The notes under the pieces: model-generated | Told to the model about the DNA's origin: nothing | The model's input: only the letters and a program-made list of their open reading frames with translations | Database searches by the model: none | Made by a program: the position numbers and the translations under genes | Shown here: one piece after another, positions 1-64,000 of the stretch | Numbering within the stretch: position 1 is the stretch's first letter | Layout: every line of letters begins with the position of its first letter | From: an uncultured Bacilli bacterium | Lineage (GTDB): Bacteria; Bacillota_I; Bacilli_A; RF39; UBA660 | Direction: 5' to 3' | Length of the DNA stretch: 64,000 bases | Assembly: GCA_947626565.1 (NCBI GenBank) | Contig: CANQSQ010000001.1 | Location: 28,900-92,899 of the forward strand

Positions 1-881
1 ATGCCCTTTTTACTAGCAGCTCCGATTCCACAAAAGTAACCAAGAGGAATGGAAATAACTAGGGCACAGGGACAAGAAGTTACTAAAAAGACGAGAGCTC
101 TATAAATCCAGGTATGATAATCTTTAGTGATTAAAGTTGGAATAAGAGCAATTATAAGAGCACAAAAAACAATAACAGGTGTATATATTTTAGCGAAGCG
201 ACTAAAAAAAGTTTCAGTTTTACTTTTACCCTCTTCAGTTTCAGAAAGTAATTTCATGATTCTCGCAGCTGTAGTAGAAGTAGCGGTTGATGTTGATTTT
301 ACTTTGATAAGTGAATCTCTATTGATACAACCACAAAGTATTTGATCATTAATGGTTACCTTTTTAGGAATGGCTTCACCGGTTAAGGGATAGGTATCAA
401 GAAAAGTTGTTCCTTCTAAAACTATTCCATCTAATGGTACTCTTTCACCAGGTTTTACAATAAAAATATCATCTATTTGGGCATCATCAACAGGAATAAT
501 TTTAGTGGCATTGCCATCTTGTAAAGTAACAGAATCAACTCGTAAATTGAGAAGTTCAGTAATAGACTTTTTACTTTTATAAACAGCTAAATCAGATAAA
601 TACTCCCCTATTTCAAATAAAAGCATAACCATGACAGCTTCTTCATAATTTTTTATTATAAAAGCGCCAATAGTAGCAATAATCATAAGTAGATTTTCAT
701 CAAAGAAATTTTTTTCTTTAATATTATCTAGTGCTTCAAGATAAATGGGATAACTAATAACTACGTAAGAAATAATTAAAAGGACTAACTGGAAGGGATT
801 ATTTTTAAAAAATAAGGCACTTATAAAAAATGCAATACTAATTATAATTCTTACTAAATTGACATTAAAAAACTTTTTCAT
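1..881 (-). CDS. Heavy-metal-translocating P-type ATPase (CadA/ZntA-like), C-terminus cut by window start
   Basis: Hand translation of the minus strand from ATG at 881-879 gives MKKFFNVNLVRIII...GERVPLDGIVLEGTTFLDTYPLTGEAIPKKV...VTSCPCALVISIPLGYFCGIGAASKKG; contains the TGE and SCPCAL P1B-ATPase motifs. No stop inside the window, so absent from the ORF track. Confidence 0.93.
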   Translation of the reverse strand, partial: MKKFFNVNLVRIIISIAFFISALFFKNNPFQLVLLIISYVVISYPIYLEALDNIKEKNFFDENLLMIIATIGAFIIKNYEEAVMVMLLFEIGEYLSDLAVYKSKKSITELLNLRVDSVTLQDGNATKIIPVDDAQIDDIFIVKPGERVPLDGIVLEGTTFLDTYPLTGEAIPKKVTINDQILCGCINRDSLIKVKSTSTATSTTAARIMKLLSETEEGKSKTETFFSRFAKIYTPVIVFCALIIALIPTLITKDYHTWIYRALVFLVTSCPCALVISIPLGYFCGIGAASKKG

Positions 882-59021: not shown

Positions 59022-61028
<2,007 letters not shown>

Positions 61029-61181
61029 TTAATTTAATTGATTCCTTTCCACTATTTTTATATTAAAATCTAAAAACACTTTTACATTCTTTTTTAGTAT
61101 AGCATTTTTTTTAGGCAAAAAAAAGGAGCTAATGATAAACTTACTTTATACTCCTTATTTACTAGTATGAGTTTATTTTCA

Positions 61182-62660
61182 TTATAAAAATTCATCAAAA
61201 ATAGAATTTATTTTTTGGTATAAATTCGGATTATTATTAAGAATTTTTTTTAGTTTTTCTATTAATTTTTCTTCATGAAGAATTTTATTATAACTTTTAG
61301 TTGCTAGTGTTAAATATGAAAGGTAAGTTTCATCATCTTTTTGGCACTTTAAAATTTCTTGTCCTTTATTTATAATCATATAATTAATATCTAATTTATT
61401 TAATTTCATAATTACTTTATCATAAGGGTTATTACCAAAGGAAACAGAATCTTTTTGATACTTATAATCAAATAAAAACCATAGAATTTTAGCGTCATCA
61501 TAAAATGTTTTATAAAAAATACCCTCTTTCAAAATAATTAAAAAATGAGGATACTGTTTTTTTAAAGCAGCATATTTTTCAATTAACTTCATTTTAAAAC
61601 TTACATCTCCTATTTTATAAATATCTTTTAAATAACCATAGTAACTAGCAAATGTTTTAGTAAATTTTATTTGGTTATTTTTTGATAATTTTTTTAATTT
61701 CTTTTTAATTTTAATTAATGTTTTTTTGCTACATGTTACAAATAACTTATTATTTATGACTTTGTAATTATAACCTAAAAAATTAAAGCCCTGATTTACA
61801 GAATAAATATTACTTTTTTTATTTTCTACTAATTTTAATTTTTGCAATTGTTTAGTAATTACTTTCCATATTTTATTTAATTTATTTTTATCAGTATCAA
61901 AAATAATAAAATCATCCATGTATCTAATATAGTATTTACATTTTAATTTTTCCTTAATGTAATGATCTAAATCATTTAAATAAAATATGGCTAAAAACTG
62001 ACTGGACATAGCTCCAATACTCAAGCCCTTATTATTCAAATAATATGGAATATCAATTTCAAAGGTGCTGTTATAGTAGGAAATTGCTTTATTAATATAA
62101 TCTTTATTAGTTTCAGAAATGATTATTTTTATAAGATTTAGAACATCTTGATCATAAATATATTTTTCTACAGCTTTAAGTAATAGTTCATGGTCTATAG
62201 AATAAAAATATTTACTAATATCTAGTTTTAAGCAATATATTTTAGATGGCTGTTCATTAACTATTATTTTTCTTAAATATTTTTTTATAAGATTATGTGC
62301 ATATTTACTGCCTTTTTCTTTTCTAGTAGCAACGTTAGCATCAATTAACTTACTTTCTAAATAAGGAAGTAAATAAAAGTTAGCAACGAAATGATTAATG
62401 ATTTTGTCACTAATTGTTTGGCTCATAACAAGTCTAGCTTTTGGTTCGAAAATAATAAATGTATGATATTTTGATGGATTATATAATTTATTCTTAAGAC
62501 GATAATATAAGGAATTAAGATTAGTATTTAGATTCAAAGAAAAATAAAATACTGCCTTTTTATTTTTACAAGTTTTTTTTATTATTTTCCACATAGAATA
62601 TAGATTTTCGAAAGTAATAGCTGACTCATAAATTGACTTAGTTTTTCTTTTTTTCTTCAT
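61182..62660 (-). CDS. DGR reverse transcriptase with C-terminal MutS-domain-I-like extension
   Basis: RT motifs LKLDISKYFYSID, GLSIGAMSSQFLAIFYLNDLDHYIKEKLKCKYYIRYMDDFIIF (DGR-type IGxxxSQ plus YMDD), FLGYNY; adjacent to TR, VR and avd. C-terminal YPHFLIILKEGIFYKTFYDDAKILWFLFDY...NNPYDKVIMKLNKLDINYMIINKG. Confidence 0.96.
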   Translation of the reverse strand: MKKKRKTKSIYESAITFENLYSMWKIIKKTCKNKKAVFYFSLNLNTNLNSLYYRLKNKLYNPSKYHTFIIFEPKARLVMSQTISDKIINHFVANFYLLPYLESKLIDANVATRKEKGSKYAHNLIKKYLRKIIVNEQPSKIYCLKLDISKYFYSIDHELLLKAVEKYIYDQDVLNLIKIIISETNKDYINKAISYYNSTFEIDIPYYLNNKGLSIGAMSSQFLAIFYLNDLDHYIKEKLKCKYYIRYMDDFIIFDTDKNKLNKIWKVITKQLQKLKLVENKKSNIYSVNQGFNFLGYNYKVINNKLFVTCSKKTLIKIKKKLKKLSKNNQIKFTKTFASYYGYLKDIYKIGDVSFKMKLIEKYAALKKQYPHFLIILKEGIFYKTFYDDAKILWFLFDYKYQKDSVSFGNNPYDKVIMKLNKLDINYMIINKGQEILKCQKDDETYLSYLTLATKSYNKILHEEKLIEKLKKILNNNPNLYQKINSIFDEFL

Positions 62661-63003
62661 TTAATTTCCATGCATAAATGATATTTTTTATTTCACTTAA
62701 TTTGCTAATAGATGAAGTTATTTTTTGAGAAGATATACATTTGTAATGTTTCAGTTCAGTTATTAGCATATCTAAAATTGATATATTAACTTGAATATCA
62801 GTTAAATATTTCATTCTAATATTTCCTTTGTTATAGATAGCATAAAACATATTTTTGGCCAAAAAATGTGTTTCATCTAAGAGATGAATTCTTAAGTCAC
62901 GATGAACATTCGGGATATTAGATACTATATATTGATTTAGATAAATTGTATAATCTAATATTTTGTTATATATATTAAATTGATGGTCTTCTGAAATAGC
63001 CAT
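62638..63003 (-). CDS. avd: DGR accessory variability determinant (Avd-like four-helix protein)
   Basis: Small helical basic protein between TR and RT; LRIHLLDETHFLAKNMFYAIYNKGNIRMKYLTDIQVNISILDMLITELKHYKCISSQK...IIYAWKLNE. ATG at 63003 preceded by GGAGG (track start 63015 lies in the RBS). Confidence 0.85.
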   Translation of the reverse strand: MAISEDHQFNIYNKILDYTIYLNQYIVSNIPNVHRDLRIHLLDETHFLAKNMFYAIYNKGNIRMKYLTDIQVNISILDMLITELKHYKCISSQKITSSISKLSEIKNIIYAWKLNEEKKKN

Positions 63004-63024
63004 TATTACCTCCATTGGTAGCTA

Positions 63025-63380
63025 AAACTATATTAACTTTCATATAGATAATTACTAGCTAATATAGTTTGTCTACCACTTTTTTGGGAATTATTTTCCG
63101 TAGAATTATACCTGTTTCACTTGCAGTAATATGCCAATCATTTTCATAGCAAAATGTTATATTCATGGCGAGGAGAAAAAGTGAAAATACGGAAGGACGG
63201 ACCCCGTTCGTGTTGTTGACGTTGTTGTTGTTCAAGTTGCCATTCGAATTGACGTTGAACCCGTTAGCGTTGTTGTTGTTGAAGTTGTTAGGGGACAACA
63301 GCCGCCACAGGAGGGTCAAGAACCAAAAACCAATTTTTACGGTATAATCCTAAGTTAATCTATATGAAACTATATAGTTT
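63025..63380 (-). other. Putative structured TR RNA closed by flanking inverted repeats
   Basis: 63025-63033 aaactatat and 63038-63049 tttcatatagat are exact reverse complements of 63372-63380 atatagttt and 63358-63369 atctatatgaaa. Confidence 0.5.
63190..63303 (-). repeat. DGR template repeat (TR)
   Basis: 114-bp repeat of VR; coding strand ...CCT AAC AAC TTC AAC AAC AAC AAC GCT AAC GGG TTC AAC GTC AAT TCG AAT GGC AAC TTG AAC AAC AAC AAC GTC AAC AAC ACG AAC GGG GTC CGT CCT TCC G. Confidence 0.97.
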
Positions 63381-63393
63381 AACCCTTTTTTTG

Positions 63394-63417
63394 CCCCACG
63401 AAAGGGTTTTCGTGGGG
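63394..63417. other. Perfect inverted repeat (10-bp stem, 4-nt loop) downstream of target gene
   Basis: ccccacgaaa-gggt-tttcgtgggg; no adjacent U-tract on either strand. Confidence 0.75.
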
Positions 63418-63444
63418 ATTTACTATGTTATAAGTTTGGAACAT

Positions 63445-64000
63445 TTATGGTTCTTCCATCATTATGGTGTAAGGATCATCACTAGTTCCTGTTCCACCTT
63501 CAGTCATTGTTCCATGGGCAAGTGAAACGGAAGGACGGACCCCGACCGTGTCGGAGACGTAGTAGACGTCCAAGTAGCCATACGAATTGACGTAGAACCC
63601 GCAAGCGTTGCGGTAGTAGAAGTAGTAAGGGGACAACAGCCAGTAATAACTACCTGTATATAGATAATAATTATAATTTGACGAACTTCTTCCTCCGGCT
63701 AACATTACTTCATCCGCACTTAATAATCCTACTGGATACTTTAACTTACCATTACCTATGTTTGAACTTACAGTAAAAGAGTCTAATTTATCACATTCGA
63801 GACTTGGTACATGAGTAGTATATACTCTATTTCTGGCATTAAAATATAAATAATCGGATGAATTGGCATCTTTATCCCAACCACCTAAACTAGAAATACT
63901 ACGGTCATTACAATATATAGTATCTTCTATTTTTTTGGCATATTCATTAGGTGTTTCATCTTCATTTAAAAATTTTTCCTTATACCATGTATCTTCTATA
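63445..64000 (-). CDS. DGR target protein, C-type-lectin-like (DUF6273/FGE-like) variable C-terminus; 5' end beyond window
   Basis: Open frame to the window edge: IEDTWYKEKFLNEDETPNEYAKKIEDTIYCNDRSISSLGGWDKDANSSDYLYFNARNRVYTTHVPSLECDKLDSFTVSSNIGNGKLKYPVGLLSADEVMLAGGRSSSNYNYYLYTGSYYWLLSPYYFYYRNACGFYVNSYGYLDVYYVSDTVGVRPSVSLAHGTMTEGG... Confidence 0.93.
   Translation of the reverse strand, partial: IEDTWYKEKFLNEDETPNEYAKKIEDTIYCNDRSISSLGGWDKDANSSDYLYFNARNRVYTTHVPSLECDKLDSFTVSSNIGNGKLKYPVGLLSADEVMLAGGRSSSNYNYYLYTGSYYWLLSPYYFYYRNACGFYVNSYGYLDVYYVSDTVGVRPSVSLAHGTMTEGGTGTSDDPYTIMMEEP
63528..63641 (-). repeat. DGR variable repeat (VR)
   Basis: Aligns without gaps to TR 63190-63303 (offset 338); 93/114 identical, 21 mismatches all at TR coding-strand adenines. 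Confidence 0.97.

Follow-up and report, generated by a model that had tools for sequence, protein, structure and literature searches.

Near one edge of the window, a stretch of 64,000 nucleotides from an uncultured Bacilli bacterium, two segments of 114 bp resemble each other closely and raise the question of how they came to differ at a single kind of base. One of them, the variable repeat (VR; positions 63528..63641, minus strand), lies at the 3' end of a target gene. The other, the template repeat (TR; 63190..63303, minus strand), is rich in AAC codons and has a G+C content of 49% as compared to 27% for the window. A sequence-only reading had aligned both over 114 columns without gaps, found all 21 mismatches at TR adenines, and taken this as the signature of mutagenic retrohoming. 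We cut both segments from the window and compared them in reverse complement, the TR block having the composition A37 C35 G21 T21. The 114 columns and 21 mismatches were reproduced. All 21 fall on the 37 adenines of the TR, none of the 77 other columns differs (0/77), and the recounted replacement spectrum is the same (A>T 13, A>G 6, A>C 2). The earlier estimate of chance placement, below about 1e-10, holds with a hypergeometric P of 3.0e-13 for all 21 on A. Absence of gaps applies within the chosen 114-bp block but not beyond it, where the similarity runs on 3' past a 3-nt gap of ambiguous placement (TR CCGTATTTTCACTT; VR CCG, the gap, then TTTCACTT). A search for mismatches at bases other than A across the extended alignment of 125 columns still gave 21 A-mismatches and 0/84 elsewhere.

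If the gene end had been duplicated and had then changed by drift or selection, with no mutagenic reverse transcription involved, this might account for a TR that lies in the frame of the duplicated target end (WRLLSPNNFNNNN...GVRPSV). There is next to no chance of this, however, given that 21/21 changes are on A (P 3e-13), that genes for a reverse transcriptase (RT) and an Avd protein adjoin the TR and that the same bias is seen across dozens of related loci; confinement to A, combined with the RT, rules plain duplication out. Mutagenic retrohoming is instead supported by the A-only pattern and by the location of all DGR parts on one strand. Comparison of the repeats thus supports a past rewriting of the VR from an A-substituted copy, and does not speak to present activity or to variation within the population. 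Since TR and VR show 0/84 differences at bases other than A, little drift appears to have occurred since the last rewriting.

The flanks of the repeats contain candidate signals for homing. TR and VR share the G+C-rich end GGGGTCCGTCCTTCCG (63528-63543 at the VR), which is followed by TTTCACTT. Directly 3' of the VR, this sequence is the candidate IMH (initiation of mutagenic homing; 63520..63527, minus strand). The candidate IMH*, TATTTTCACTT (63179..63189, minus strand), lies 3' of the TR and is 3 nt longer than its counterpart at the VR. Two relatives, L082 and L084, have the same TR/VR difference immediately ahead of TTTCACT. A strong hairpin, CCCCACGAAA/TTTCGTGGGG, is located at 63394-63417 between the target stop codon and the TR, with no T run after it on the minus strand.

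Target C-terminus/VR, TR, avd and RT follow one another in this order, all on the minus strand. The Avd-like accessory protein (62638..63015, minus strand; its start may be at 63003) has 125 aa. By itself it matches bAvd (PF22296) with E 5e-6, which is under the curated Pfam/NCBIfam cut-offs, and it found no match in the PDB. Nearly all related loci have a homologue at the same site ahead of the RT, and 11/16 of these positional homologues match bAvd, the best with 9e-18. We assign the 125-aa ORF as Avd because of these homologues and their matches. The RT (61182..62660, minus strand) is a fusion protein of 492 aa in all, its C-terminal part being an MSL (MutS domain I-like) module. It matches RVT_1 (E 2e-18) and carries the DGR motif IGAMSSQ as well as YMDD, which are invariant or conserved in the RT alignment A1. 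Its AF2 model has a mean pLDDT of 90.6, and the best PDB match of the model is the DGR RT complex 8ub7 (E 1.5e-19). No second RT was found in the genome. The spacer RNA region between the TR and avd (63003..63189, minus strand) would, from its position and by analogy with BPP-1, be the place of cDNA priming; the predicted fold of the TR-spacer RNA is not better than that of shuffles (z -1.6, not significant).

TR, VR, avd and RT share one contig of 92.9 kb with ligA and gatCAB. Nothing phage-like was seen near the cassette. A phage origin was rejected, as IMG/VR yielded no close RT relative (best 32%) and no TR-pattern match, and the neighbours are ligA and gatCAB. A group II intron was likewise rejected: the group II RT model scored 106 of 300 bits, far under the cut-off, and there was no Rfam match in 60000-64000. 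We are all but certain that the cassette is a complete, chromosomal (non-phage) cellular DGR, and it is an ordinary member of an already known kind of DGR. With the DGR of Bordetella phage BPP-1 (mtd/avd/TR/brt) it shares A-specific TR-to-VR differences, a VR at the target 3' end, Avd, a DGR RT and IMH/IMH*-like flanks, the latter being candidates here. Unlike the BPP-1 DGR, which is arranged VR-avd-TR-RT, it has the order VR-TR-avd-RT, is chromosomal, carries an MSL tail on its RT and may serve more than one target gene.

The target is protein-coding and has the VR inside its 3' end; of its open frame, the C-terminal 184 codons are present (63445..64000, minus strand). The window ends at the final base of the contig (G000:C1:92899), so that the frame is cut and the N-terminus of the target lies off the contig. 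The end of the frame is DUF6273-like, matching just above the Pfam cut-off (24.4 bits vs 23.5), and is 78-87% identical at the protein level to two relatives, with differences mainly within the VR. The genome contains about nine members or fragments of a VWA/DUF6273 paralogue family. A full-length paralogue on contig C5 has 988 aa and combines VWA, a divergent InlB-repeat and a DUF6273-type end with an N-terminal hydrophobic segment; the AF2 model of its C-terminus is too poor (pLDDT 53) for judging whether the variable domain has a C-type lectin fold. DNA similarity to the VR region was detected at two other places in the genome. We aligned the VRs of the paralogues to the TR, letting template adenines vary and permitting gaps. 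The paralogue on C45 (L005, G000:C45:493-748) showed 20 A changes, 1/84 other changes and a 6-nt insert. Of those on C5, the one at 57 kb (L006, G000:C5:57105-57354) showed 16 A changes, 9 others and a 6-nt insert, and the one at about 2.5-2.7 kb (L069) 20 A changes and 13 others. The remaining VWA/DUF6273 paralogues fit the TR no better than shuffles. Because 20 A changes stand against 1 other, C45 is a credible second target in trans. The two C5 paralogues look like older or decayed targets, or targets made from another TR. The VR-like tips of all three are G+C-rich, and the 6-nt inserts of C45 and of C5 at 57 kb are in-frame and lie at AAC runs relative to the TR. Several target genes are also a feature of cellular DGRs such as those of Treponema; these resemble the present one in that a single TR/RT is associated with more than one VR-bearing surface gene, and differ in target architecture, which is VWA + DUF6273 here.

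Two orphan target N-termini of about 760 aa (G000:C13:2-2272, G000:C54:596-2818) end at contig ends, and each overlaps the start of C45 equally, by an identical 77 bp. The break in the assembly falls within the repeated part of the target. One of the two N-termini probably belongs to the window target, and the equal overlap with C45 fits either. Such breaks at the target repeat, in a MAG with 6% contamination, raise the question whether the locus is an artefact of assembly or binning, particularly as the window itself stops inside the target. We consider this very improbable, since TR, VR, avd and RT lie together on the 92.9-kb contig with ligA and gatCAB, and uninterrupted RT-MSL frames are found in other genomes too (14 to about 15).

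A further explanation is that the locus is a DGR remnant, dead now though its VR was once rewritten. A static assembly cannot reveal activity, and the C5 tips at 57 kb and 2.7 kb, with 9 and 13 non-A differences, show no recent rewriting from the TR. Against this, the RT and avd frames are open with intact active-site motifs, and TR and VR are free of non-A differences (0/84). A dead system therefore appears unlikely.

How general is the A restriction? The RT is present in 205/389 genomes of the same family. In 38 TR/VR pairs, drawn from loci around these RTs and from named Bacilli loci and counting among them the pair of the window and some near-duplicates, the template A is changed in 649/1330 cases and other bases in 29/3220. 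By these counts, restriction to A is the norm for this lineage. In-frame TR/VR indels, mostly in AAC runs, occur in L035, L080, L084 and L046, as for C45 and C5; such indels could arise from slippage in cDNA synthesis or in the TR.

The fusion of the RT to the MSL module, which the sequence-only reading overlooked, is the sole unusual part of this otherwise routine DGR. Over its last 135 residues, the RT is similar to the MutS N-terminal domain. The module itself (61341..61589, minus strand; residues 358-440) matches Pfam MutS_I (PF01624) with 24.3 bits vs a cut-off of 20.6, and phmmer aligns it to residues 13-95 of E. coli MutS with E 1.5e-5. A profile search with alignment A5 also matched MutS strongly and was not counted, as A5 included a stretch of the host MutS locus; the kinship of MSL and MutS is based on the single-sequence match and on Pfam. 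In the F-x-E motif of E. coli MutS, the Phe stacks against the mismatched base, with which the Glu also makes contact. The window MSL has the motif EGIFYKTFYDDA, in which the Phe is kept and the Glu is replaced by Lys (F-x-K). Thus it resembles the mismatch-recognition domain of bacterial MutS in sequence and in the wedge Phe, and differs from it by the missing Glu and by being joined to a reverse transcriptase; a Pfam scan of the fused RT found no other MutS domain. We rejected the module as a MutS mismatch-repair protein on account of its F-x-K motif, the lack of other MutS domains and the presence of the genome's real MutS elsewhere. The host genome encodes a full MutS, plus MutL (MutL_C), and hence has a repair pathway to be avoided.

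The survey of Wu et al. 2018 is reportedly the main one on DGRs and is said to have named MSL; our literature search, which had this survey outside its scope, found no description of an RT-MSL fusion. MSL (PF01624, MutS domain I) has already been named as a DGR accessory protein (PMC10053308). DGRs with this accessory share with the present one the same MSL module and the same Avd and RT family. The nearest relatives in Bacilli carry MSL as a separate upstream ORF; in the window, the RT itself ends in it. Indeed, MSL is a separate ORF in most related cassettes, usually between target and avd, and scores over the PF01624 cut-off. The fusion is found in the window and the 14 to about 15 other genomes, with fused RTs of 490-519 aa. 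In a tree of the RT part only, the window belongs to a fully supported clade of 12 rows, 11 of them fused, and all 15 fused rows fall inside one clade of 20 rows (99/98). The fusions belong to one lineage of this bacterial family, and one or several fusion events are possible, 4 changes being needed. L097 and L098 have MSL as an adjacent ORF after the RT, and the RT tail has diverged in L103 and L088. At L088, the start of a genuine MutS gene (1-636, minus strand) lies beside the DGR, which falls in the same RT clade and has the diverged MSL tail just mentioned.

What might the module do? It may be a tail that serves the RT only structurally or by binding nucleic acid, in RNP assembly or on TR-RNA or a strand, and that has nothing to do with mismatches. 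This has not far from an even chance of being correct. The MutS Glu is replaced in nearly all MSL copies, all other MutS domains are missing, and MSL can be a protein of its own or part of a fusion. The conserved wedge Phe speaks against a purely structural tail, though a few decayed tails are without the motif. In a MutS_I-like alignment of 50 rows, the Phe is present in 48/48 rows with that column, including two genuine MutS, and a Glu two residues past it is present in 3 rows: the host MutS, the genuine MutS by L088 and one MSL (L056). The kept Phe, together with MutS and MutL in the host, makes a role on heteroduplexes a reasonable guess for MSL.

The cassette presents the parts, their order, and differences that are A-only in cis and nearly A-only in one gene in trans; how priming, misincorporation and homing would proceed at this DGR we infer from BPP-1. 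The TR would be transcribed together with its 3' spacer, and an RT-Avd complex would copy the TR RNA into cDNA, misincorporating opposite template adenines. The cDNA would then replace the VR at the target 3' end from the IMH side, altering mostly AAC codons for the DUF6273 tip of a VWA protein on the cell surface. The C-terminal MSL would sit on the mismatch-rich heteroduplex of cDNA and target, where it would help homing or stop host MutS/MutL from reverting the rewritten VR. The explanation as a whole we hold with great confidence. For the action of MSL on mismatched heteroduplex, aiding homing or blocking reversion by MutS/MutL, our confidence is low and the proposal tentative; it is drawn from homology and one motif, and many DGRs are without MSL. 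A simple role in structure or RNA binding is no less probable. In an E. coli assay of the BPP-1 DGR, loss of MutS left repair of an 18-nt insertion unchanged, this insertion being said not to be a MutS substrate (PMC12875486). More speculative still, and in our view improbable, is an in-built anti-repair DGR, in which a Glu-less wedge domain derived from MutS and delivered with the cDNA would hide A-derived mismatches from MutS/MutL.

With this cassette, the known cellular DGRs gain a further well-supported case that has a target in trans. Mutagenic homing must produce mismatch-filled heteroduplexes in a host possessing mismatch repair. As the motif-altered MutS domain is fused in one clade and a separate gene in sister clades, the escape of DGRs from reversion becomes testable via one residue, the Phe, and one host gene, mutS. 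The RT-MSL fusion is the part of the finding that could matter beyond a routine DGR.
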